DNA of 15,737 nucleotides, taken from positions 1 to 15,737 of the forward strand of contig SLNI01000281.1 in assembly GCA_007133115.1 (NCBI GenBank). Reading direction: 5' to 3'. The position numbers were made by a program, and so were the translations under genes. Below the pieces are notes generated by a model, which was not told the origin of the DNA, searched no databases, and saw only the letters and a program-made list of their open reading frames with translations. Shown here piece by piece: positions 3,462 to 13,336 of the stretch (positions within the stretch are counted from its first letter, which is position 1; every line of letters begins with the position of its first letter). The DNA is from Thioalkalivibrio sp. Lineage in GTDB: Bacteria > Pseudomonadota > Gammaproteobacteria > Ectothiorhodospirales > Ectothiorhodospiraceae.

Positions 3462-3483
3462 GTTCCTTCGTGGAAGGGCAGCG

Positions 3484-3894
3484 ATGATCCTCGGCATCGG
3501 CATTGACCTCGTCCGCGTGGAGCGTCTGCGCAGCCTCCTCGAACGGCACGGAGAGCGCCTGTTGCAGCGGGTGCTGCACCCGGAGGAGCAGGCGCAATTA
3601 CCCTCCGTCCGTCCGGAGAGTTTTCTCGCCCGCCGGTTTGCCGCGAAAGAGGCCCTCGCCAAGGCGCTTGGCTGCGGTATCGGCAAGGGCATGGCGTTGC
3701 CCGATGCCTGCGTGATTCATGATGCGTCGGGGCGCCCGGGGTTGGCCTTGAGCGGCGCCGCCGCGCGCACCGCCCGGCAGCTCGGCGTGGTCCGGATCCA
3801 TCTCAGCATCAGCGACGAGCACGACTATGCTCAGGCCTTCGTCGTGCTCGAAGGCGACGGTCCATCGGATGCGTCGACCCAAGAATCCGTCTGA
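3484..3894 (+). CDS. acpS: Holo-[acyl-carrier-protein] synthase
   Basis: A 136-residue trimeric phosphopantetheinyl transferase that moves 4'-phosphopantetheine from CoA to apo-ACP, priming fatty acid and hence lipid A synthesis. The N-terminal GIGIDLVRVER carries metal ligand D8. RFAAKEALAKALG carries E56, and a GIGKGM stretch follows. The C-terminus has the family LSISDEHDYAQAFVVLE strand, then a short unconserved tail (GDGPSDASTQESV) slightly longer than in E. coli AcpS. The ATG follows a strong GGAAGGG at 3472-3478 with a 5-base spacer, which decides this start over longer in-frame options inside pdxJ. It is the last gene of the first operon segment; 44 bases after its stop the inverted-repeat element begins. 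Confidence 0.97.
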   Translation: MILGIGIDLVRVERLRSLLERHGERLLQRVLHPEEQAQLPSVRPESFLARRFAAKEALAKALGCGIGKGMALPDACVIHDASGRPGLALSGAAARTARQLGVVRIHLSISDEHDYAQAFVVLEGDGPSDASTQESV

Positions 3895-3938
3895 CCCAAT
3901 CATCGGGCGGCTCGGTCTCGGCCGCACCGCGGAAGGGT

Positions 3939-4040
3939 GCAGGTCGCAGAATCCGTTGGTGGGTGTCGGCAGCAGGGATGCTGCCGTCAAGCCTACATGG
4001 ATGTATTCACGGCGTCCCACCAACGGATTCTGCGACCTGC
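3939..4040 (+). repeat. Nested inverted-repeat element, copy 1
   Basis: Perfect 25-bp arms at 3939-3963 and 4016-4040 enclose a 52-base centre (3964-4015). With the adjacent GGG and CCC, 58 bases match copy 2 at 12416-12473 with a single difference (T3998 here, A in copy 2). The arms are unrelated in sequence to those of copy 2. Inside the centre, hairpin 1 pairs 3967-3974 with 3979-3986 around a GGGA loop. Hairpin 2 pairs TACA 3994-3997 with TGTA 4002-4005 around TGGA. The two GGA triplets are 23 bases apart. An alternative stem pairs GCCGT 3983-3987 with ACGGC 4009-4013 and would exclude hairpin 1. No T-run follows the outer stem, so it is not a standard intrinsic terminator. The element lies between acpS and cysM, with its right arm ending 58 bases before the cysM ATG. 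The sequence structure is certain; its role is unknown. Confidence 0.93.
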
Positions 4041-4084
4041 GCCAGGCCACCGGCGCGCGCGTCCCCGCGTTCGGTTGATGCCGG

Positions 4085-4090
4085 TATACT
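4085..4090 (+). promoter_or_regulatory. Possible -10 box of cysM, near-leaderless transcript
   Basis: TATACT lies 8 bases before the cysM ATG, and no Shine-Dalgarno-like sequence lies between them. Transcription from such a -10 would begin at or within a base or two of the ATG, giving a leaderless or nearly leaderless mRNA. I find no convincing -35 at 16-18 bases upstream (the region around 4062-4068 is C-rich), which lowers confidence. If correct, cysM has its own promoter downstream of the repeat element rather than relying on read-through from acpS. Confidence 0.4.
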
Positions 4091-4098
4091 GTCGCGCC

Positions 4099-5007
4099 AT
4101 GACGCGATCGAACCTGCAACGCTATCCCACGCTGGAACAGTTCGTGGGCAACACGCCGCTGGTGCGCCTGCAGCGTCTGGCCCAGGGCCTGCCGTCGACG
4201 GTGCTGGCCAAGCTGGAGGGCAACAATCCTGCGGGTTCGGTCAAGGATCGCCCCGCACTGAACATGATCGTGCAGGCGGAGGCCAGGGGCGAGATACGGC
4301 CCGGCGACACGCTGATCGAGGCGACCAGCGGCAATACCGGGATCGCACTCGCGATGGTGGCGGCGATCAAGGGCTACCGTATGGTGCTGATCATGCCCGA
4401 AAACATGTCGGCCGAGCGACGCGCGGCGATGAAGGCGTTCGGTGCCGAGATCATCCTGGTGAGCCGCGAGCAGAGTATGGAAGGTGCCCGCGACCTGGCC
4501 AAGCAGATGGAGCAGGAGGGTCGGGGGCGGGTCCTGGACCAGTTTTCCAACGCGGACAATCCGGATGCCCACTACCAAGGCACTGGGCCGGAGATCTGGC
4601 GCGATACCGAGGGAGCCGTCACACACTTCGTATCGTCAATGGGCACCACCGGCACCATCATGGGGACTTCGCGCTATCTCAAGGAGAAGGATCCGCGCGT
4701 GCAGATCGTCGGGGTTCAGCCCACCGAAGGGTCCTCCATTCCCGGAATCCGACGCTGGCCGAAGGAATACCTGCCGTCGATCTTCGAACCCGTCCGTGTC
4801 GATCGGACCCTGGACATCAGTCAGCAGGAAGCGGAAGCCACCATGCGCAGGCTGGCCGCCGAGGAGGGTATCTTTGCGGGTGTCTCCTCCGGGGGTGCCG
4901 TGGCGGCGGCGCTGCGGGTCGCGGCGGAGGTGGAGGGCGGCACGGTCGTGGCGATCATCTGCGACCGCGGCGACCGCTACATATCCACCGGTGTCTTTCC
5001 GGCATGA
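4099..5007 (+). CDS. cysM: Cysteine synthase B (O-acetylserine sulfhydrylase)
   Basis: A 302-residue PLP enzyme making L-cysteine from O-acetylserine and sulfide (CysM types also use thiosulfate). The PLP lysine is K49 in GSVKDRPA. The SGNTGIA loop at 77-83 binds the substrate carboxylate, and SSMGTTGT and GVSSGG supply the phosphate and pyridine-side loops. The PGIRRWPKEYLP stretch is typical of the CysM rather than the CysK branch. The reading frame is open upstream through the repeat element to 3937, but the family N-terminus (YPTLEQFVGNTPLVRL) fits the ATG at 4099. The stop overlaps the next start as ATGA. In Pseudomonas the gene is likewise next to rlmD (from memory); here an exonuclease gene lies between them. 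Confidence 0.96.
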   Translation: MTRSNLQRYPTLEQFVGNTPLVRLQRLAQGLPSTVLAKLEGNNPAGSVKDRPALNMIVQAEARGEIRPGDTLIEATSGNTGIALAMVAAIKGYRMVLIMPENMSAERRAAMKAFGAEIILVSREQSMEGARDLAKQMEQEGRGRVLDQFSNADNPDAHYQGTGPEIWRDTEGAVTHFVSSMGTTGTIMGTSRYLKEKDPRVQIVGVQPTEGSSIPGIRRWPKEYLPSIFEPVRVDRTLDISQQEAEATMRRLAAEEGIFAGVSSGGAVAAALRVAAEVEGGTVVAIICDRGDRYISTGVFPA

Positions 5008-5789
5008 CCGGCCCGGTGCTGATCTTCGATCTCGAGACCGTACCCGATCTCGAGGGCGCCCGACGACTGCACGATTTCGACGGGCTCAGCGATGCGGAAG
5101 TCGCTGACGCACTGTTCGCGCTGCGGCGGATCAAGACCGGCTCGGATTTTCTCGCCCATGCCCTGCATCGGGTCGTATCCATCGGCGTGCTCTACCAGGG
5201 CGGGGACCAGCTGAAGCTCTCGGCCTTCGGACGCGACACCGAGGACGAGGCGGAATTGCTGCACCAGTTCTTCGACGTGATCGAGAAAAGAACGCCCACG
5301 CTGGTCAGCTGGAACGGCGGGGGTTTCGACCTGCCGGTGCTGCACTATCGGGCCCTGCTGCAGCGGGTGCAGGCGCCGCGCTACTGGGAGCAGGGGAGCG
5401 ACGATCCGGCGTTCCGCTACAACAACTACCTGAACCGGTTTCACTGGCGCCACATCGATCTGATGGACGTGCTCGCCGGCTATCAGATGCGCGCCAGCGC
5501 CGGCCTCGACACCATCGCCAGCCTGCTCGGTTTCCCGGGCAAGCTGGGGATGGACGGAAGCAAGGTCTGGCCCGCCTGGCGCGACGGAGATCGCGAGCGC
5601 ATCCACGATTACGTCGAACACGACGTGTTGAACACCTATCTCGTGTACCTGCGCTTCGAACGGATGCGCGGGGGCCTGAACCCCGAGAGCCATGCCAGGC
5701 GCGAGGCGCAGCTGCGTACCTACCTGGCCGATTCGGGCCAACCTCACCTCGAGGCGTTCGCGGCCGCGTGGCAGTCGGGAAGCCCGTGA
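5004..5789 (+). CDS. Predicted 3'-5' exonuclease, PolB-like DEDDy family
   Basis: A 261-residue protein of the RNase H-like DEDDy exonuclease superfamily, matching the stand-alone 'exonuclease related to the exonuclease domain of PolB' family. Exo I is FDLETVP with D9 and E11. Exo II is SWNGGGFDLPVL with D109. Exo III is HDYVEHDVLNTY with Y203 and D207, the DEDDy spacing. The conserved block FRYNNYLNRFHWRHIDLMDVL lies between Exo II and Exo III. No polymerase domain is present, so this is a free-standing nuclease; its natural substrate is not established. It overlaps cysM as ATGA and rlmD as GTGA, so all three should be translated together. The coupling of an exonuclease to cysteine synthesis and rRNA methylation has no obvious functional logic. 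Confidence 0.9.
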   Translation: MTGPVLIFDLETVPDLEGARRLHDFDGLSDAEVADALFALRRIKTGSDFLAHALHRVVSIGVLYQGGDQLKLSAFGRDTEDEAELLHQFFDVIEKRTPTLVSWNGGGFDLPVLHYRALLQRVQAPRYWEQGSDDPAFRYNNYLNRFHWRHIDLMDVLAGYQMRASAGLDTIASLLGFPGKLGMDGSKVWPAWRDGDRERIHDYVEHDVLNTYLVYLRFERMRGGLNPESHARREAQLRTYLADSGQPHLEAFAAAWQSGSP

Positions 5790-7102
5790 ATATCGACCGC
5801 ACCCCCTTCGAACTGCAGATCGATGACCTGACCCTGGAGGGGCAGGGAGTCGGACGCCGTGATGGCAAGGCCTGTTTCGTCGAAGGCGCGCTGCCTGGCG
5901 AACGGGTGCGGGTGGTGCAGACAGGGCGCAAGCACAACTTCGATACCGCACGTCTCGAAGCGGTCCTCGATCCGGCTCCGGAGCGCGTGGAACCGCCCTG
6001 TCAGTGGTTCGGCGTGTGCGGCGGCTGCCGTCTGATGCACGCCGATATCGGTCTGCAACGCGTGCTGAAGGAAAAGAGCCTGTTCGAAACTCTGGCGCGT
6101 GTGGGGCATGTGCAGCCCGAGCGCAGACTGGCCGCACTCGTCGGTGATGATCTCGGTTATCGGCGCACGGCCCGGCTCGGCGTGAAGTACGTGGCTCGCA
6201 AAGGCGGGGTGCTGGTGGGGTTCAGGGAGCGGGCTGGCCGCTATCTTGCCGACATGCACGATTGCCCGGTGCTGCATCCAGCCGTCGGGCAACGGATCGA
6301 CCACCTGCGTGCACTGCTCACCGGCCTCGAGGCGCGAGACCGCATTCCCCAGATCGAAGCCGTGGTGGACGATGCCGGAAACACGGCGTTCGTTTTCCGG
6401 AATCTGCAGACTCTCTCGCCGGAGGATCTCGACCGGCTCGGTGCATTCGCCGAAACGCAGGGCGTGCAGGTTTATCTGCAGCCTGGAGGGGCGTCGACCG
6501 TGGCGTTCCATGCCGGTCCTCGATCCCGGTTGCAGTACGGACATCCGGAGTTCGATGTCACCGTCGCATTCGAGCCGCTGGACTTCATCCAGGTTCATGC
6601 ATTGATCAACCGCCAGATGGTTCGCCAGGCGGTGGCATTGCTGGCGCCCGAGAGCGATTCGCAGGTGCTGGATCTGTTCTGCGGGCTGGGCAATTTCACC
6701 TTGCCGCTGGCCCGTCACGCCGGCGGCGTGCTGGGCGTTGAAGGAGACACGATGATGCTGGAGCGTGCCCGTGCCAACGCCGAGGCACAGGGCATCCTGA
6801 ACACGCGGTATCTTCGCGCCAATCTGGACGACGAGACGCTCGCGGACGCCGACTGGCTCGGCGAGTCCTTCGACAGGGTGTTGCTCGATCCGCCGCGCAC
6901 CGGTGCTGCGGCGGCCGTCGCTGCGCTTGGGCCGCGCGCGATTCCCCGCCTGGTCTACGTCTCATGCAACCCCGCAACGCTGGCCCGGGACGCGGAGCAA
7001 TTGGTGCACCATCATGGCTACCGGCTCGAAGCCGCGGGCATCATGGACATGTTCCCCCACACCGCACATGTGGAGTCGATGGCCCTGTTCACACGGGTTT
7101 GA
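5786..7102 (+). CDS. rlmD: 23S rRNA (uracil-1939-C5)-methyltransferase
   Basis: A 438-residue SAM-dependent enzyme that makes m5U1939 in 23S rRNA. The order is an N-terminal TRAM RNA-binding domain (about 1-62), a [4Fe-4S] cluster site C72-x5-C78-x2-C81 with the fourth ligand C160, then a Rossmann methyltransferase domain with VLDLFCGLGNFTLPLA at about 294-309. The catalytic nucleophile is C394 in YVSCNPATLARD and the general base is E430 in HVESMALF. Length is near the 433-residue E. coli RlmD. I chose GTG 5786 because it makes a GTGA overlap with the exonuclease stop and follows GGGAAG; GTG 5768 is an in-frame alternative adding six residues. In E. coli and Pseudomonas relA follows rlmD; here it does not. 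Confidence 0.95.
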   Translation: MNIDRTPFELQIDDLTLEGQGVGRRDGKACFVEGALPGERVRVVQTGRKHNFDTARLEAVLDPAPERVEPPCQWFGVCGGCRLMHADIGLQRVLKEKSLFETLARVGHVQPERRLAALVGDDLGYRRTARLGVKYVARKGGVLVGFRERAGRYLADMHDCPVLHPAVGQRIDHLRALLTGLEARDRIPQIEAVVDDAGNTAFVFRNLQTLSPEDLDRLGAFAETQGVQVYLQPGGASTVAFHAGPRSRLQYGHPEFDVTVAFEPLDFIQVHALINRQMVRQAVALLAPESDSQVLDLFCGLGNFTLPLARHAGGVLGVEGDTMMLERARANAEAQGILNTRYLRANLDDETLADADWLGESFDRVLLDPPRTGAAAAVAALGPRAIPRLVYVSCNPATLARDAEQLVHHHGYRLEAAGIMDMFPHTAHVESMALFTRV

Positions 7103-7114
7103 CTTTGCCGCCAT

Positions 7115-7139
7115 GCGTGCGGATCGGGGCTCCGGACGC
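7115..7139 (+). terminator. Imperfect hairpin after rlmD, weak terminator candidate
   Basis: GCGTGCGGA at 7115-7123 pairs with TCCGGACGC at 7131-7139 over a 7-base loop, with one internal mismatch. It begins 12 bases after the rlmD stop and is followed only by a weak T-containing stretch (TGTTTCG). It could end the cysM-exonuclease-rlmD transcript partially. The missing U-tract makes a true intrinsic terminator doubtful. Confidence 0.3.
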
Positions 7140-7165
7140 GTGTTTCGCCTACCCCCGCCTGCAGG

Positions 7166-7171
7166 TATGAT
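7166..7171 (+). promoter_or_regulatory. Possible -10 box upstream of exbB
   Basis: TATGAT lies 56 bases before the preferred exbB ATG, in the 125-base gap between rlmD and exbB, downstream of the candidate terminator hairpin. A -35 match at the right distance is poor (TTTCGC near 7143). It would place a leader of about 50 bases ahead of exbB. The position fits a new transcription unit for the envelope genes, but the sequence evidence is weak. Confidence 0.27.
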
Positions 7172-7216
7172 CGAACGTGGACTTCGAATCGTTCACTTGG
7201 GCCTGGCTCGAAGTTT

Positions 7217-7222
7217 GGGAGA
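7217..7222 (+). promoter_or_regulatory. Ribosome-binding site deciding the exbB start
   Basis: GGGAGA sits five bases before ATG 7228. The alternative GTG 7177 has no comparable site at proper spacing, so this purine run is the main reason for choosing the shorter protein. Confidence 0.7.
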
Positions 7223-7227
7223 ACTGG

Positions 7228-7863
7228 ATGCTTGAGATCGTGAAGGCGGGCGGTTGGCTGATGGTGCCGATCCTGCTGTGCTCCGTGATCGCGGTGGCGA
7301 TCGTCCTCGAGCGGCTCTGGAGCCTGCGCCGCCGCCGCGTGGTTCCGCGCGGGCTGCTGATGAAGGTCTGGGAACAGGCCCGCTCGGGCGGGCCCGCGGT
7401 GGAGGTGCAGCTCCAGCGACTGCGCGCGCGTTCGCCGCTCGGCCAGGTGCTGGCCGCGGGGCTGGCCGCGCAGGATCAGTCCCGCGAGGTGATGAAGGAA
7501 ACCATCGAGGAGACCGGGCGCCGGGTCGCCCACGAACTGGAACGTTTCCTGAACACGCTGGGTACCATTGCCATGATCACGCCGCTTCTAGGGTTGCTGG
7601 GAACGGTGGTGGGCATGATCGAGGTCTTTACCGTAATTACGGAGATCGGCGTCGGCAGCCCGCGCGATCTTGCCGGCGGAATCTCCCAGGCGCTCGTGAC
7701 CACAGCAGCCGGGATCGGGGTGGCGATTCCGACGCTGATCTTCCATCGCTATTTCCGCGGCCGGGTCGATGAACTGGTGATCGAAATGGAGATGGAGGCG
7801 GTGAAGCTGGTGGAAGTGATTCACGGTGAACGCAGCGCGGCCGCCGTCGGGGGAGCAGTGTGA
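7228..7863 (+). CDS. exbB: ExbB/TolQ-family proton-channel protein
   Basis: A 211-residue inner-membrane protein of the MotA/TolQ/ExbB family, which with ExbD forms a proton-driven motor energising outer-membrane processes. The first membrane span is about residues 10-27. After a cytoplasmic stretch the two conserved spans follow, the first containing TPLLGLLGTVVGMIEVF and the second the QALVTTAAGIGVAIPTLIF block. A longer frame begins at GTG 7177. I prefer ATG 7228 because GGGAGA at 7217-7222 lies five bases upstream, and MLEIVKAGGWLMVPI is the usual N-terminus of this subfamily. It couples to exbD by GTGA. In Pseudomonas a similar exbB-exbD pair also precedes lpxK-ycaR-kdsB, so this pair may serve envelope or lipopolysaccharide functions rather than TonB; that is inference. 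No tonB is present here. Confidence 0.93.
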   Translation: MLEIVKAGGWLMVPILLCSVIAVAIVLERLWSLRRRRVVPRGLLMKVWEQARSGGPAVEVQLQRLRARSPLGQVLAAGLAAQDQSREVMKETIEETGRRVAHELERFLNTLGTIAMITPLLGLLGTVVGMIEVFTVITEIGVGSPRDLAGGISQALVTTAAGIGVAIPTLIFHRYFRGRVDELVIEMEMEAVKLVEVIHGERSAAAVGGAV

Positions 7864-8285
7864 AATTCCAGCGCCGCAGGGATGAGGAGGTGGGGATCAA
7901 TCTCACCCCGCTCATCGACGTGGTGTTTCTGCTGCTGATCTTTTTCATGGTCTCGACCACGTTCGAGCGACACGGCGAGATTCAGCTGCAACTCCCGTCG
8001 GCCGACCGCGATCCATTGCCGGCGCAACAGTCCTGGATCGATGTGCTGGTCGACGCGACCGGTACCTACTACGTCGACGGGCAGGAACTCGTGAACCGGC
8101 GCCCGGAGACTCTGCAGCGCATGCTGGAAACCGTGCTGAGCGAGCGCAGTGGACAACCGGTCCTGGTGCGCGCGGACGCCAATGCCTCACACCAGTCGGT
8201 GGTCACAGCGCTGGATGTGATCGGCAAGCTCGGCGTGACTTCCGTTTCCATCGCTACCATTGGCCGCGCTCCTGATGACCCCTGA
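7860..8285 (+). CDS. exbD: ExbD/TolR-family proton-channel protein
   Basis: A 141-residue single-span partner of ExbB. The conserved NLTPLIDVVFLLLIFFMVSTTF segment starts at about residue 14 and carries the proton-carrying aspartate D20. The remaining ~100 residues form the periplasmic domain, including VLVRADANASHQSVV and the final helix-strand (LDVIGKLGVTSVSIAT). Length is that of a typical ExbD. It starts at a GTG overlapping the exbB stop as GTGA, and its end overlaps the msbA start by 11 bases, so the three genes are translationally tied. Confidence 0.95.
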   Translation: MKFQRRRDEEVGINLTPLIDVVFLLLIFFMVSTTFERHGEIQLQLPSADRDPLPAQQSWIDVLVDATGTYYVDGQELVNRRPETLQRMLETVLSERSGQPVLVRADANASHQSVVTALDVIGKLGVTSVSIATIGRAPDDP

Positions 8286-10044
8286 ACCCGTGCACGCCGC
8301 GTATGACTCCGGAATGCGGGTCTACAAGCGTTTGCTCGCGATCGCTTTCCTGTACTGGCCCCTGTTGCTGACCGCCACCGTCACCATGATGGTGATGGCG
8401 TTGACCGAGGCCGGTTTCGCCGCATTGATGAAGCCGCTGATGGACGACTCCTTCGGCGAGGGTGACAGCGACCTCGCACGCTGGATTCCCCTGCTGCTGA
8501 TTGTCCTGTTCGCGGTACGGGGTTTTGCCGAGTTCGGAGCGACCTACACCATGCGGTACGTGGGGCGCCAGGTGGTCAAGCATCTGCGCCGACAGTTGTT
8601 CGAACGCCTGCTGGTGATGCCGGTGCAGCATTTTCAGCACCAGTCCAGCGGCGAACTGATCTCGCGCCTGACCTACAACGTCGAGCAGGTGGCCAACGCG
8701 GCCACCGACGGTTTCAGCGTGCTGGTTCGAGACACGCTCACCATTCTCGTGCTGCTCGCGTGGATGCTCTATCTGAGTGCATCGCTCACCCTGGCGGTAC
8801 TCGTCATCGCGCCGTTCGTGGTGCTGGTGGTGAAGGTCGTAGCCCGGCGCTTCCGGAAGATTTCGCACCGCATCCAGGGCAACATGAGTGACGTGACCCA
8901 CGTGACCCAGGAGGTCATCGAAGGCCATCGAGTCGTCCGGATTTTTGGCGGCGAGGCCTACGAACGTGAGCGCTTCGATGGCATCAACGAGCGCAACCGC
9001 CACCTGCATATGCGGATGGAGGGCGTGAAGGCGGCCTACGTTCCGCTGATCCAGTTCATCATCGCGCTGGTGCTCGCGTTCATCATCTGGACCGCAACCT
9101 CGGATGTGTTGGGCGAGCAGGTGACCGCGGGGACGTTCGTCTCGTTTCTCACTGCGATTCTGCTCCTGCTCACCCCCGTGCGCCGGCTCAGCATGATCAA
9201 CGCCACGCTGCAGCGCGGCATCGCGGCGGGCCAGAGCATTTTCGCGGTGCTGGACCAGGAAGCCGAACGCGACGCCGGGCATACGCCGATGGAGCGTGCC
9301 CGGGGCAGGCTGCGTTTCGAGCGAGTGAGCTTCCGCTACGAACCCCAGGGCCCCGAAGTTCTGCGTGACGTCAGTCTCGAGATCCAACCCGGGGAGAACA
9401 TCGCGCTGGTCGGTCGGTCCGGCAGTGGCAAGACCACTCTGGTCAACCTGTTGCCGCGTTTCTTCAGACCCACCCATGGGCGCATCGTGCTCGACGGCCA
9501 TGATCTCGAGGATCTGCGCCTGCGTGACCTGCGGCGGCAGATCGCCTACGTGGGGCAGAATGTCACTCTGTTTGCGGACTCCGTTGCCGCCAATATCGCC
9601 TACGGGCGCATGGAGGCGACGCCCGAGGAGATCCGGGCTGCGGCGGAGGCGGCCCACGCGCTCGAATTCATCGAGCGTCTTCCGGAGGGGTTCGACACCC
9701 AGGTGGGCGAAAACGGGGCGCTGCTCTCCGGCGGGCAGCGCCAGCGCATCGCGATCGCGCGCGCTCTCTTGCGGGATGCCCCTTTGCTGATTCTCGACGA
9801 GGCCACGTCGGCGCTGGACAACGAATCCGAGCGCAGGGTGCAGTCCGCTCTCGAGAACCTCATGCAGACGCGGACGACCGTAATCATCGCGCACCGACTG
9901 TCCACCATCGAGCGGGCTGACCGCATCGTGGTGCTCGACGCCGGGCAGATTGCCGAGATCGGGACGCATGATGAGCTGTTGGCGCGGGACGGCCTGTATA
10001 CCCACCTATACCGACTCCAGTTCCGCGATTCCGAGGTCATCTGA
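8275..10044 (+). CDS. msbA: Lipid A export ATP-binding/permease protein MsbA
   Basis: A 589-residue ABC half-transporter that flips lipid A-core from the inner to the outer leaflet of the inner membrane as a homodimer. The N-terminal part (about 15-320) holds six membrane spans. The nucleotide-binding domain follows with Walker A GRSGSGKTT (from residue 380), signature LSGGQ (484-488), Walker B LLILDEAT with E509, and H-loop H540 in IIAHRLS. Alignment by eye to E. coli MsbA is good along the whole length (LLKPLLDDGF here reads LMKPLMDDSF; VALVGRSGSGK is shared). The start at ATG 8275 has no clear ribosome-binding site and may depend on coupling to exbD; ATG 8314 is a possible shorter start. 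The gene lies with lpxK and kdsB, fitting lipid A synthesis and export. Confidence 0.95.
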   Translation: MTPEPVHAAYDSGMRVYKRLLAIAFLYWPLLLTATVTMMVMALTEAGFAALMKPLMDDSFGEGDSDLARWIPLLLIVLFAVRGFAEFGATYTMRYVGRQVVKHLRRQLFERLLVMPVQHFQHQSSGELISRLTYNVEQVANAATDGFSVLVRDTLTILVLLAWMLYLSASLTLAVLVIAPFVVLVVKVVARRFRKISHRIQGNMSDVTHVTQEVIEGHRVVRIFGGEAYERERFDGINERNRHLHMRMEGVKAAYVPLIQFIIALVLAFIIWTATSDVLGEQVTAGTFVSFLTAILLLLTPVRRLSMINATLQRGIAAGQSIFAVLDQEAERDAGHTPMERARGRLRFERVSFRYEPQGPEVLRDVSLEIQPGENIALVGRSGSGKTTLVNLLPRFFRPTHGRIVLDGHDLEDLRLRDLRRQIAYVGQNVTLFADSVAANIAYGRMEATPEEIRAAAEAAHALEFIERLPEGFDTQVGENGALLSGGQRQRIAIARALLRDAPLLILDEATSALDNESERRVQSALENLMQTRTTVIIAHRLSTIERADRIVVLDAGQIAEIGTHDELLARDGLYTHLYRLQFRDSEVI

Positions 10045-10048
10045 CCCG

Positions 10049-11173
10049 GTGGCTGCCGTGGATTCCGGCTACGGCGGCGGCTTCTGGCCGGTCTGGCGAG
10101 CGACCGTTCAGGATTACCGGTCGGGCGCGGGCGCCAGGGCCCGGGCGCGCCACGGTTTCCTCACCCCCCCTGAGGGTCGCGGGCGAGTGGTCTGGATCAA
10201 GGCCGGGGGCACTCCGGAGTCGCTGCGCCTCGGGGTGGAACTGGTGGGCGCTGTCCGCGAGCGCCGGAAGGACGTACGCATCGTGATGACCTTCGAAAAC
10301 GAGGATCCGGATCTGTTGCAGACCTGGATGCAACCCTGGCGCGGGGTCGGTGTCGGTTACGGGCCCTGTGATCGTCCGGCGGTCGTGCGCAGGGTGCTGC
10401 GCCGGTTCCAGCCCTGCGGCATCCTCCTGGCCGAGTCCGAGCCGCCGAGTCAACTTTTGCACGACGTGCAGGTGCCGGTGGCCGCTGTGGGCACCCCGCT
10501 GCCGGGGGCGCCGGTTCGCGTGGCCTGGCCGCTCAGCGCGGAGACCCAGCGTGCGTGGGAGTCTTCGGGCCTCGCGACCGAACTGATGGTTCCCGCGGAT
10601 CCACAGGCCCGTTTCACCGAGGCGCAGGCCGACGTGGTGCTGCGCGCCCTCGCCGGCGGCGAAACGCGCCGGCTGTGGTGGTGGCACGGCGAAGCACAGC
10701 AGTGGCCCGCCTGGCTCGCCGCATGGCGGGGCGCGGAATTTTCCGGGACCGATGTTCTACTCGCGAGCCTCGAGTCGGGCGCGGTTCTCCCGCAGGCCTC
10801 CCTCTCCGCCAGCGGCTGGGATCGTCGCAAGCTCCCTGGAGGCAGCATCCTGCATCTCGACGATCCCCGCTGGTTTGCCGCCGCCGCGAGTGCCGCGCAT
10901 GCCATTCACCTGGCCGCTCCGGGACGTGGCGCGCTCTGGCAGTCGCTCGCCGCCGGCGCGGCGGTCACGCTGGGCGCGGCGGGGGCTACCCGTGATCCCT
11001 CCTTGCCAGTCCTTGCACGGATCCCGGACGTGATCGAGCAGTGGCGGGGCCTACGCGATGACGAGCAACGGCGGCGCGGGCTGGGCGATGCTGCACGGCG
11101 GCGCTTCTGGGAGGAGCGCCGTCAGGTGGACGCCAACCTCACTGTGCTGATGGACCAGGTCTGGACATGGTAG
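10049..11173 (+). CDS. Divergent WaaA/KdtA-like protein (degenerate GT-B glycosyltransferase)
   Basis: A 374-residue protein I cannot name with certainty. The N-terminal half resembles the Kdo-transferase N-domain: RVVWIKAGG followed by E57 lines up with the IHAxSVGE motif; VRIVMTFEN follows; then GYGPCDRPAVVRRVLRRFQPCGILLAESEP lines up with WaaA's YLPYDLPGAVRRFL...METELWP. In the C-terminal half the spot where WaaA has GGHNPLEPA reads PGRGALWQSLAAGAAVTLG, so the key nucleotide-sugar-binding residues are gone. The usual N-terminal membrane anchor is also missing. It is Trp- and Arg-rich. It starts at GTG 10049, five bases after msbA, with GAGGT at 10033-10037, and overlaps lpxK by seven bases. 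It may be a non-catalytic paralogue acting with MsbA or LpxK, or an enzyme of changed specificity. Family assignment is moderate; function is open. Confidence 0.6.
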   Translation: MAAVDSGYGGGFWPVWRATVQDYRSGAGARARARHGFLTPPEGRGRVVWIKAGGTPESLRLGVELVGAVRERRKDVRIVMTFENEDPDLLQTWMQPWRGVGVGYGPCDRPAVVRRVLRRFQPCGILLAESEPPSQLLHDVQVPVAAVGTPLPGAPVRVAWPLSAETQRAWESSGLATELMVPADPQARFTEAQADVVLRALAGGETRRLWWWHGEAQQWPAWLAAWRGAEFSGTDVLLASLESGAVLPQASLSASGWDRRKLPGGSILHLDDPRWFAAAASAAHAIHLAAPGRGALWQSLAAGAAVTLGAAGATRDPSLPVLARIPDVIEQWRGLRDDEQRRRGLGDAARRRFWEERRQVDANLTVLMDQVWTW

Positions 11174-12171
11174 AGCAGTGGCTTTGGAAGCAGTGGATGC
11201 GTCGCGGCCCGTTTGCGGCCGTGATGTTTCCGCTGTCGCTCATCTATGCGGCACTGGCCAACTGGAATCGCTCCCGACTGGACGCAAACCAACTCCACGT
11301 CGTGTTGCCCCTTAAAGCGGTGATCGTTGTGGGCAATCTGACCGTTGGCGGCAGCGGCAAGACACCGATGACCGCCTGGCTGGCCCGTCGCCTGGAATTG
11401 CAGGGCTATCGTGTCGGTATCGTCAGCCGAGGCTACGGTCGCCGACCCAGCGAAGGCGGATTCCAGGTCCATCCGGGTGCCGATCCCAGGGTGGTGGGTG
11501 ACGAGCCCATCCTGCTGGCGCGCCGCGCCGGCGTGCCAGTGCAGGTGGACCGCGATCGGGTGCGCGCCGCGCGCGCGCTGGCGGAGCAGGGCATCGAGGT
11601 GGTGATCTCCGACGATGGTCTGCAACATCATCGGCTGCCCCGCGACATCGCGGTCCTGATGGTGGACGGCCGCCGTCGTTTCGGAAACGGATTATGTCTA
11701 CCGGCCGGCCCCTTGCGTGAACCGCGTGCGACGGTGGCCCAGGCTGATTTCGTGGTGACCGTGGGTGGGCAGCCGCAGCAAGGGGAGTTCGCAATGTCTC
11801 TGCTGGCGGACGATGAACTCGTGGCTGTAAGGACTGGTGGCGGCGTCCGCCCGCTCACGCAGTTTTGCGGGCGCCCGGCACATGCCGTCGCCGGGATCGC
11901 CGATCCGGATCGCTTTTTCGACGCTCTCGAAGCTGCCGGTGTGCAGGTCATCCGACACCCGTTTCCGGACCATCACCGCTTCCGCGCGAAAGAGATTCGC
12001 TTCGACGACGGCTACCCGGTACTGATGACCGAGAAGGATGCCGTAAAATGCACGGATATTGCCGACAAGCGCCATTGGTACTGGCCGGTGTCGGCCCAAC
12101 CGGAGCCCGCCTTCGAACAGGCGCTTCTGCAACGACTCGAAACCTGTATACGGTTCAAATACCTGGGGTGA
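11167..12171 (+). CDS. lpxK: Tetraacyldisaccharide 4'-kinase
   Basis: A 334-residue P-loop kinase that phosphorylates the 4' position of the lipid A disaccharide precursor to give lipid IVA, acting at the inner membrane. An N-terminal hydrophobic helix (about 15-33) anchors it. The P-loop is VGGSGKTP (60-67); SRGYGRR, GDEP, SDDGLQHHRL (148-157), FGNGLCLPAGPLREP and TEKDAVKC follow in family order. Length is typical. The ATG lies inside the end of the preceding gene (seven-base overlap). The product's pathway neighbours MsbA and KdsB are in the same cluster. Confidence 0.97.
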   Translation: MVEQWLWKQWMRRGPFAAVMFPLSLIYAALANWNRSRLDANQLHVVLPLKAVIVVGNLTVGGSGKTPMTAWLARRLELQGYRVGIVSRGYGRRPSEGGFQVHPGADPRVVGDEPILLARRAGVPVQVDRDRVRAARALAEQGIEVVISDDGLQHHRLPRDIAVLMVDGRRRFGNGLCLPAGPLREPRATVAQADFVVTVGGQPQQGEFAMSLLADDELVAVRTGGGVRPLTQFCGRPAHAVAGIADPDRFFDALEAAGVQVIRHPFPDHHRFRAKEIRFDDGYPVLMTEKDAVKCTDIADKRHWYWPVSAQPEPAFEQALLQRLETCIRFKYLG

Positions 12172-12177
12172 ATCACG

Positions 12178-12372
12178 ATGGACAAGCGCCTGCTCGATAT
12201 TCTCGTCTGCCCGGTCACGAAGGGGCCGCTGCACTATGACCGCGACGCGGGTGAGCTGATCTCGGTCTCCGCCGGGCTCGCGTACCCGATCCGGGACGAC
12301 ATCCCGGTCATGCTCGAGGACGAGGCGCGGGTGCTGTCGGACGAAGAAAAGCAGCGCTGGCGATCGAAGTGA
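12178..12372 (+). CDS. ycaR: Trm112/YcaR family small protein
   Basis: A 64-residue protein of the Trm112 (UPF0434) family: [14 protein letters not shown], then [21 protein letters not shown] closely match YcaR proteins that sit between lpxK and kdsB. Its role in bacteria is not settled; eukaryotic and archaeal Trm112 activates methyltransferases. Only one cysteine remains (the CPV motif), and the second position of the usual CPxC is threonine, so a structural zinc site is unlikely. GGGGTGA, overlapping the lpxK stop, serves as ribosome-binding site. The gene ends 18 bases before repeat copy 2. Confidence 0.93.
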
Positions 12373-12390
12373 TTCCCGGACGTTGCGGTC

Positions 12391-12498
12391 GCCCTGCACC
12401 TCCCGACCTTTCCGCGGGTGTCGGCAGCAGGGATGCTGCCGTCAAGCCTACAAGGATGTATTCACGGCGTCCCGTGGAAAGGTCGGGAGGTGCAGGGC
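12391..12498 (+). repeat. Nested inverted-repeat element, copy 2
   Basis: Arms of 28 bp at 12391-12418 and 12471-12498 pair throughout, with one G-T wobble (12414 with 12475). They enclose a 52-base centre (12419-12470) identical to copy 1 except for A12453 in place of T. Hairpin 1 pairs 12422-12429 with 12434-12441 around GGGA; hairpin 2 pairs TACA 12449-12452 with TGTA 12457-12460 around AGGA. The stretch UACAAGGAUGU, as RNA, matches the CsrA selection consensus RUACARGGAUGU (from memory) at 11 of 12 positions. The arm sequences do not resemble those of copy 1. Orientation is the same as copy 1 and as the flanking genes. It lies between ycaR and kdsB, with its right arm ending 64 bases before the kdsB ATG. 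No T-run follows the stem. The structure is directly visible; its function is unknown. Confidence 0.93.
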
Positions 12499-12562: not shown

Positions 12563-13336
12563 ATGACCGAGCAGGGCTTCGTGGTGGTGATCCCCGCGCG
12601 GATGGGTTCCAGCCGTCTTCCGGGCAAGCCGCTGATCGCGATCGCCGGCCGGCCACTGATTGCTCACGTGGTGGCCCGTGCGAGGGAAAGTGCGGCGCAG
12701 CGGGTGATCGTGGCCAGCGACGACGAACGGGTCCTCGAGGCCGCCCTTCAGGCCGGCGCCGAGGCACGCTGGACGGCCCCGGATCTTCCCTCGGGCACGG
12801 ATCGGATCGCAGCCGTCGCGGCGGAGGAAGGTTGGTCGGACGCGACCTGTGTGGTCAATCTTCAGGGCGACGAACCGCTGACCCCGGGAAACCTGCTGGA
12901 CCGGCTCGCGGGGTTGCTGCAACGGTATCCGCAGGCGGACATGGCCACGTTGGGAGTGCCGCTTCGGCGGGTGGAGGATCTCAGGGATCCCCACCAGGTG
13001 AAGCTGGTGACCGATGATGCCGGCCGGGCGCTGTACTTTTCCCGGGCACCCATTCCCTGGGATCGCGAGGCGCACCGTCTCGGGCATGAGCCGGATCTGG
13101 CGCTGGCCCGTCGCCACCTCGGTCTGTACGCCTACCGGGCCGGCTTCCTGCGCCGCTTGACCGCTCAGCCGCCCGCGGGACTCGAGCGGCTGGAGCAACT
13201 CGAACAGTTGCGCGCGCTGGCGCTCGGCGCATGGATCCAGGTCGGCATCGTCGACGCGCCGGTCCCCGCAGGCGTGGATACGCCCGAGGATGTCGAGCGC
13301 CTGGAAGCGCTCATGGGCGCAACGGCGCGGGCGTAA
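12563..13336 (+). CDS. kdsB: 3-deoxy-manno-octulosonate cytidylyltransferase (CMP-Kdo synthetase)
   Basis: A 257-residue enzyme that activates Kdo with CTP to CMP-Kdo for the inner core of lipopolysaccharide. Visible motifs: IPARMGSSRLPGKPL (10-24), ASDDERV, PSGTDRIA, NLQGDEPL with D103, YFSRAPIPWDR, HLGLYAYR, LERLEQLEQLRAL, and VDTPEDVERLE near the C-terminus. The frame is open upstream through repeat copy 2 as far as 12383, which could mislead gene callers; the ATG at 12563 gives the normal N-terminus and has a G-rich ribosome-binding site five bases upstream. Its 3' end overlaps the opposing HAD gene by 26 bases. Confidence 0.97.
   Translation: MTEQGFVVVIPARMGSSRLPGKPLIAIAGRPLIAHVVARARESAAQRVIVASDDERVLEAALQAGAEARWTAPDLPSGTDRIAAVAAEEGWSDATCVVNLQGDEPLTPGNLLDRLAGLLQRYPQADMATLGVPLRRVEDLRDPHQVKLVTDDAGRALYFSRAPIPWDREAHRLGHEPDLALARRHLGLYAYRAGFLRRLTAQPPAGLERLEQLEQLRALALGAWIQVGIVDAPVPAGVDTPEDVERLEALMGATARA

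Follow-up and report, generated by a model that had tools for sequence, protein, structure and literature searches.

The window examined here is a 15,737-nt stretch of a Thioalkalivibrio sp. genome (positions 1 to 15,737 of contig SLNI01000281.1, assembly GCA_007133115.1), and it contains two copies of an intergenic repeat element, one between an acpS-like and a cysM-like gene and the other between a Trm112p-like and a kdsB-like gene (Table 1). The 58-nt centers of the two copies differ at one base, as the first-pass annotation of this DNA had recorded, and make up the top-listed direct repeat of the window. Their arms form the inverted repeats that head the corresponding listing: 3936-3963/4016-4043 in copy 1 (28 nt with one T·G pair, 25 of them perfect when counted from 3939) and 12391-12418/12471-12498 in copy 2 (28 nt with one G·T pair). 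In each copy 52 nt separate the arms, and the arms of copy 1 are unrelated in sequence to those of copy 2. Both elements lie between genes, with 55 nt (copy 1) and 64 nt (copy 2) from the end of the stem to the presumed start codon of the next gene, in line with the earlier estimate of about 60 bases; other ATGs intervene.

Table 1. Parts of the two repeat elements in the window and the genes next to them.
Feature	Position	Strand	Evidence
Copy 1, left arm, locus-specific	3936..3960	+	inverted repeat
Copy 1, conserved 58-nt core (GGG/CCC base, hairpin 1, hairpin 2)	3961..4018	+	direct repeat, BLAST, covariance model
Copy 1, hairpin 1, ANGGAN loop AGGGAT at 3974-3979	3967..3986	+	covariation structure, loop counts
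Copy 1, hairpin 2, loop ATGGAT at 3997-4002, unpaired TTCAC on 3' side	3991..4013	+	covariation structure
Copy 1, right arm	4019..4043	+	inverted repeat
Copy 2, left arm	12391..12415	+	inverted repeat
Copy 2, conserved core, with inverted orientation in the G015 ortholog (L192)	12416..12473	+	direct repeat, ortholog alignment
Copy 2, hairpin 1, loop AGGGAT at 12429-12434	12422..12441	+	covariation structure
Copy 2, hairpin 2, loop AAGGAT at 12452-12457	12446..12468	+	covariation structure
Copy 2, right arm	12474..12498	+	inverted repeat
Upstream of copy 1: 4'-phosphopantetheinyl transferase (ACPS, acpS-like), start approximate	3481..3894	+	PF01648, 68.8 bits
Downstream of copy 1: pyridoxal phosphate (PLP) enzyme (PALP, cysM-like)	4099..5007	+	PF00291, 262.1 bits
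Upstream of copy 2: Trm112p-like, start approximate	12187..12372	+	PF03966, 62 bits
Downstream of copy 2: cytidylyltransferase (CTP_transf_3, kdsB-like)	12563..13336	+	PF02348, 181 bits

The element is a dispersed, structured intergenic repeat family of Gammaproteobacteria that is present in no catalogue searched here. The window's own draft genome (1.6 Mb in 288 contigs, 81% complete) holds nine copies by BLAST, each with its own long arms, and ten matches by covariance model. Among this genome and its relatives, 18 of 58 genomes are carriers (14 of 30 within the genus and four outside it), with from 1 to 17 or more units per carrier; 16 of the genus genomes have no match, and four have at least 16 matches each. 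The first-pass annotation had predicted many intergenic copies with identical centers and different arms, and near-identical centers on copy-specific complementary arms do recur in many copies; its counter-case, an element restricted to two copies and missing from relatives, does not describe them.

We also searched an exact 19-letter piece of hairpin 2 in a species-level genome collection, and all figures for this wider set apply to the matches listed. At least 124 matches in at least 119 stretches were returned. Judged by their titles, the records are nearly all from gammaproteobacteria (a few are titled just Proteobacteria or Pseudomonadota, and one Rhodobacteraceae), and they include Methylococcales, Lysobacter, Luteimonas, Microbulbifer, Rheinheimera, Pseudomonas, Halopseudomonas, Saccharospirillum, Ectothiorhodospira and Thioalkalivibrio. 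A covariance model built from 42 cores matches 71 of 369 genomes of the class, from 64 of 271 genera, at E <= 1e-4. It recovers the window copies at 3960-4019 (80.7 bits) and 12415-12474 (80.3 bits), both of which belong to its training set. An exact pattern had no match in viral contigs and the 58-nt core none by blastn in plasmids or in E. coli genomes; given the viral and plasmid results, a phage or plasmid origin was rejected. In the window, no Rfam family reached its gathering score. Below threshold there were six hits at three loci, some of them overlapping an element; the best scored 26.3 bits against a cut-off of 50. They are regarded as chance, and a known RNA family was thus rejected as well. 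Nor was a description of the element found among the papers listed from the open PubMed Central literature; the first-pass annotation, too, named no family with this design.

Some individual records and contigs deserve mention (G, C and L numbers are our handles for genomes, contigs and loci). Records titled Rhodobacteraceae (L084), Klebsiella pneumoniae (L080, a metagenome-assembled genome with two matches) and Yersinia pekkanenii (L141) occur in the wider set, and the first two may be mis-binned. Draft contigs end about 115 bp or less from an element in several cases (G014:C360; G027:C95, C15 and C29; G016:C54, C85, C155 and C188), so the hairpins may break assemblies, and draft copy numbers are likely underestimates. 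Tandem triplets of the element, spaced by about 108-114 bp, are present at L231 and L232 of G035 (a related genus), and at L200 (G016) and L214 (G027) two elements lie about 100 bp apart with arms that are apparently shared or overlapping.

The unit measures about 110 bp, a 58-nt core plus two arms of about 26, and has a three-way fold. Covariation shows that the core folds into two hairpins on a GGG/CCC-type base, with hairpin 1 covarying strongly. The underlying alignment, gap-free over 60 columns, consists of the two window copies and 40 cores of the wider set, selected from the 124 listed because they are <90% alike and their hairpin 1 pairs well and sits at the usual distance. In these 42 cores 92.6% of cells pair and 163 cells are changed on both sides, compared with a shuffled mean of 43.3; the covariation score is 0.583 against 0.159 after shuffling (reached in 0 of 500 shuffles) and at most 0.136 when the structure is slid along the alignment. 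All eight hairpin 1 pairs and all four pairs of the base helix have two-sided changes, and the outermost hairpin 1 pair is unpaired in 24 of the 42 cores. Invariance of hairpin 2 in this set is uninformative because the search pattern fixed it. Among 95 distinct cores of the window's family, 94.7% of hairpin 2 cells pair and 14 are two-sided (3-8 when slid), and in copies found with the model TCCA/TGGA, CCCA/TGGG or GACA/TGTC takes the place of TACA/TGTA. Among the same 95 cores, pair 10-21 of hairpin 1 is A-T in 60 and C-G in 26. This alternation is seen between orthologs too (L199, L282), and core exchange between copies by gene conversion could produce it.

The arms stay largely complementary while their sequence drifts. 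Their length beyond GGG/CCC is sharply peaked at 25-26 bp (102 copies, about a quarter of them decayed or cut short), and 40 elements of the wider set have stems of 20-34 bp. In the 102 copies, decayed ones included, true partner arms form a median stem of 25 bp, as against 2 bp when a left arm is re-paired with the right arm of another copy; 33 of 2015 such re-pairings, orthologs included, reach 15. One copy with an arm of >50 bp at a contig end (L007) looks like an assembly foldback and was dropped from most arm counts but kept in the 102-copy set. Across the window's genus and family, no two non-orthologous loci exceed an arm identity of 0.77 (91 intact copies). Arms of different loci have a mean identity of 0.419 versus 0.311 when shuffled (3,491 comparisons), a likeness strongest in the inner nine bases. 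The unrelatedness of the arms asserted by the first-pass annotation is therefore correct by sequence within the window's own genome, but a weak common pattern runs across loci and some other genomes have shared arms.

Between orthologs, assigned by their flanks, arm identity declines with flank identity (91 intact pairs, r=0.73). Paired change was counted in 22 independent ortholog pairs; the left arm and the intactness of one partner were the only selection criteria, and the right arm was left free. Across their 541 base pairs, 51 left and 59 right changes predict 5.6 double changes, whereas 39 were observed, so that the compensatory arm changes predicted beforehand are indeed found. In total, 71 arm pairs changed between sister species, 39 on both sides (36 of these Watson-Crick) and 32 on one side. 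Transversions account for 23 of the 36 Watson-Crick double changes and transitions for 13; therefore, a G·U intermediate cannot account for most of them.

In other genomes, the arms range in stages from shared (G144) to unrelated (G384). Seven copies in G144 have the same core and nearly identical arms, and several copies have arms in common in G324 and G392. In these three genomes the terminal repeats are thus shared sequences, an outcome that the first-pass annotation had named as contrary to its proposal and that does not occur in the window's genus. Over six comparisons, the four copies of G166, with cores alike at 59-60 of 60 positions, show 34 double changes of Watson-Crick type, 9 single ones and 4 others. 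The eleven copies of G160 still have similar arms, and 36 comparisons among them give 137 Watson-Crick double changes, 38 other double changes and 125 single ones. Arms in these two genomes have thus diverged from a common ancestor, in G166 chiefly through paired changes and in G160 through paired and single ones to a like extent. In G384 nine copies with unrelated arms have 420 double and 46 single differences; by reading, the cores of eight of the nine differ by no more than a few bases and stand on unrelated, well-paired arms. Pairs such as L217/L251 and L204/L246, considered as candidates for total arm replacement, have an arm identity equal to the background of unrelated loci; they lie outside the 22-pair set and were not used as evidence of drift. 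The 28 closest pairs with both arms intact include such background-identity pairs and gave 114 Watson-Crick double, 60 single and 11 other double changes; for that reason their spectrum (68 transversions, 46 transitions) was not used as evidence, and neither was their one-sided tally (18 GT, 14 AC, 28 other), which mixes orientations for inverted pairs. At L204, a decayed older element lies next to a newer one.

The core inverts in place. It is inverted relative to its flanks in 75 of 170 ortholog pairs, which are non-independent, and in 9 of 28 independent closest pairs. Despite a core flip, 23 of 26 arm pairs are unchanged in four of these nine, L004/L192, L018/L268, L216/L258 and L186/L220, the first two of which were aligned. 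L004/L192 is copy 2 of the window with its sister-species ortholog, its core inverted between nearly unchanged arms; the common orientation of the two window copies, to which the first-pass annotation had drawn attention, is thus an unstable property. By reading, two of the seven near-identical G144 copies (L378, L381) also have the core turned inside the same outer sequence. According to the available text of the sources, template switching between inverted repeats homogenizes arms and inverts spacers (PMC8604942), and it creates and helps maintain RNA hairpins (PMC8794818). The pattern of arm homogenization with spacer inversion is present in these elements, and we infer that this one known process accounts for both the matched arms and the core flips. 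The first-pass annotation had offered template-switch duplication of flanking DNA around an inserted core, or strong selection for a long stem; the data point to both template switching and stem selection, but not to duplication of the flank around an inserted core.

Both loops resemble the recognition loop of the RNA-binding regulator CsrA/RsmA and of RsmE, and CsrA binding and an RNA function may be predicted from this likeness in sequence. The consensus for CsrA obtained by systematic evolution of ligands by exponential enrichment is RUACARGGAUGU with an ANGGAN hexaloop, and one dimer bridges two sites 10-63 nt apart (PMC7652899, as far as its available text describes). ANGGAN is present in loop 1 of 129 and loop 2 of 123 of 132 copies of the window's family, counts that are favored by retrieval through likeness to the window core. 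The wider-set search pattern left hairpin 1 uncovered, and there 92 of the 120 listed matches with enough upstream DNA carry a hairpin of at least 4 Watson-Crick pairs capped by a six-base loop. Of these 92 loops, 79 contain GGA, on 32 different five-base stems, and 76 ANGGAN; in shuffled upstream DNA GGA was found in 16 of 568. Loop positions 2 and 6 are variable and the A and GGA are mostly kept, a pattern as in CsrA sites. Hairpin 2 is UACANGGAUGU, and the GGA triplets of both loops lie 20 nt apart, so the core has both features of a predicted CsrA/RsmA site pair: ANGGAN hairpin loops and a spacing within the bridged range. CsrA (PF02599) itself was detected in 12 of the 18 carriers among the window's genome and its relatives and in 40 of 41 wider carriers.

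Mismatches in the arms, read on the core strand, are biased in the wider set. Its 40 non-redundant elements have 39 G·T, 5 A·C and 44 other mismatches, with more G·T in 21 elements and more A·C in two (p=6.6e-5). This excess suggests selection on core-strand RNA, since mutation alone predicts equal numbers unless it is strongly strand-biased; a DNA hairpin on one strand would equally produce it. Single genomes give 4 G·T v 0 A·C (G166), 4 v 1 (G384), 9 v 1 (G392) and none (G144). The pooled wobbles of the window's family (54 G·T, 16 A·C, 57 other in 102 copies) count orthologs repeatedly.

Miniature inverted-repeat transposable elements (MITEs) are small, non-autonomous dispersed units with inverted ends. 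The element is likewise a small dispersed unit with inverted ends, which are shared in G144 and G324; unlike a MITE, its ends are not shared in the window's genus, where the middle is conserved instead. Repetitive extragenic palindromes (REPs), as described in the available portions of PMC3733652, are palindromes 20-40 bp long that carry GTAG or CGTC as an unpaired tag at one end and have a family-specific stem. The GTAG and CGTC super-families resemble the element in their palindromic structure and intergenic position, often with convergent or codirectional neighbor genes, and in being proposed to be transcribed; the element differs in its length of about 110 bp, three-way fold, lack of a conserved tag and free arms (PMC3733652). 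Its CTAC lies in hairpin 2 and covaries, and the base after GGCG varies. The class of REPs and their associated tyrosine transposases (RAYT) was accordingly rejected because no tag is kept, a judgment made on the tag, no transposase search having been made. The Thioalkalivibrio REP listed in the available part of PMC2817692, GTAGGTCGGCCTTCAGGCCGAC, is a different sequence. Small RNAs of the CsrB/RsmZ type share with the element ANGGA-looped hairpins at a spacing that suits a CsrA dimer, but these, as the accessible text presents them, are individual small RNAs with several sites, whereas the element has two predicted sites per unit and long locus-specific stems (PMC7652899, PMC5864184, PMC9788540). 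Arm homogenization, multinucleotide paired changes and inversion of a spacer or loop recall template-switching inverted repeats; the cases given in the available sections of PMC8604942 and PMC8794818 combine arms of 7-16 bp with inverted spacers or loops of 2-8 bases, unlike the 58-nt cores that flip within arms of about 26 bp at several loci of one bacterial repeat family.

On balance, we lean towards a structured repeat in which the arms are matched by template switching and selection on the RNA stem, the core binds CsrA and the unit spreads non-autonomously. The element would comprise a stem of about 26 bp that matters for pairing only, a short GGG/CCC-type base and a conserved core of two ANGGAN hairpins. 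One arm would be copied from the other by template switching, and the same process would flip the core, while the RNA stem, in its core-strand reading, would be under purifying selection. If only pairing matters, the arms of old copies would become unrelated while the core stays constant. The core RNA would bind one CsrA/RsmA dimer via its two loops, hence its conservation; each copy would mark, or titrate CsrA from, the transcript carrying it; and copies would multiply as a MITE-like unit via some enzyme. A broader proposal, which we put forward tentatively and would not bet on, is that these self-correcting, flip-flopping hairpins spread a ready-made CsrA/RsmA dimer site class-wide as a distributed CsrA sink or transcript tag, with orientation as a heritable switch choosing the neighboring transcript. 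If the CsrA reading is right, a repeat element has placed a large number of unrecorded sites for this global regulator, and existing data from cross-linking and immunoprecipitation (CLIP), RNA immunoprecipitation (RIP) and RNA-seq could reveal them immediately. Separately, the elements form a natural replicated record resembling bacterial template switching, in which flips of the conserved 58-nt cores and arms tending to change in step would allow rates to be measured.

A number of observations weigh against the favored proposal. One-sided arm changes are common too, 32 beside the 39 double changes; in G160 the single changes nearly equal the Watson-Crick double ones, and 99 transitions beside 38 transversions fit stepwise change as well. 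Where more distant species are compared at one locus, arm identity drops to the background, and separate insertions may therefore have occurred there. The wobble bias is weak in the window's family, where one value per locus gives 38.0 G·T to 18.3 A·C (20 v 10 loci, p=0.10); it is slight in G160 (15 v 11), and the one-sided changes of the 22-pair set comprise 13 G·T, 7 A·C and 12 other. According to rough, GC-based gene calls, 89 copies of the window's family have 31 convergent, 38 codirectional and 13 divergent neighbor pairs and seven a gene call on one side. The codirectional copies divide into 21 core-sense and 17 antisense, and those of the wider set, from the matches listed and equally rough calls, into 10 and 19 (p=0.14). 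Gene orientation thus does not support the idea that the core strand is transcribed from neighboring genes, and flips are tolerated between codirectional genes (copy 2 of the window). Open reading frame (ORF) calls in the wider set placed 116 copies, 18 of them "inside" an ORF, by a method that fails at GC-rich loci; it put 55 of 116 copies of the window's family "inside" ORFs, and its counts for the family were not used. Very stable hairpins may be disadvantageous (PMC7652899, available text), and hairpin 1 has seven or eight pairs. CsrA was not found in 6 of the 18 carriers, all fragmented drafts (five are 58-81% complete, and G003 is rated 96%); since CsrA is present in 45 of 48 good genomes, its presence proves little.

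The strongest competitor, in our view unlikely yet worth serious attention, is a single-stranded DNA element whose core hairpins are a transposase signal on one strand, of the HUH/RAYT type or another, so that the CsrA likeness would be coincidental and conservation and strand bias would reflect mobility instead of RNA function. The dispersed and patchy distribution (14 of 30 genus genomes), the apparently recent multiplication in some genomes (G144, with identical cores and shared arms) and the lack of a clear orientation preference relative to genes all fit such an element, and a one-strand DNA hairpin would tolerate G·T too. Yet no GTAG or CGTC tag is kept: the GTAG of the complementary strand is paired within hairpin 2 and is swapped together with its partner elsewhere. 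Against it, too, A and GGA of the loops are mostly conserved and positions 2 and 6 variable, in the manner of CsrA sites.

We consider it improbable that the element is a transcribed hairpin working by structure alone, for instance in 3'-end protection, as an RNase III site or as a transcription barrier, with loops that serve junction folding. A stem of about 26-30 bp in most intact copies, the strand-biased wobbles of the wider set and the position of 31 of 89 family copies between convergent genes would suit this role, but it leaves the A.GGA with a variable second base in both loops unexplained. An intrinsic terminator was rejected, as none of 99 intact copies has TTTT within 10 nt 3' of the stem (on the other strand, 1 of 99 does). 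Least probable of all, and in our view very unlikely, is that the core inserts into existing palindromes or duplicates its flank on insertion, giving arms of local origin: the absence of non-orthologous loci above 0.77 arm identity and the near-identical cores on unrelated, well-paired arms in eight of nine G384 copies would agree with it, but the peaked arm length, the arms shared in G144, G324 and G392 and partly diverged in G160 and G166 argue against it and against the flank duplication suggested by the first-pass annotation (indirectly so in the window's genus), and no palindrome was read at empty sites (14 of 26 kdsB loci and the L195 locus), all too diverged to show the pre-insertion state.

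Finally, both window loci were compared among genomes by reading. At the kdsB locus the element is present in 5 of 26 genomes (three of them with arms other than those of G000/G015), the intergenic distance is -2 to 3 nt in 14 of the 26, and an arm-like remnant persists in G003. At acpS-cysM, where 24 regions were compared (3 of 27 were unplaced), G000 has the whole element and G015 a piece of it beside another repeat. A search of 13 genus genomes also showed a second repeat family, about 165 bp long, with several to many copies in most of them (e.g., L189:1077-1243). A stretch of similar appearance (CCACGGAAAACACGG... / ...CCGTGTTTTCCGTGG) is contained in the broken element at G015 acpS-cysM (L158, about 1330-1500), and from reading the two we would assign it to the same putative 165-bp family.

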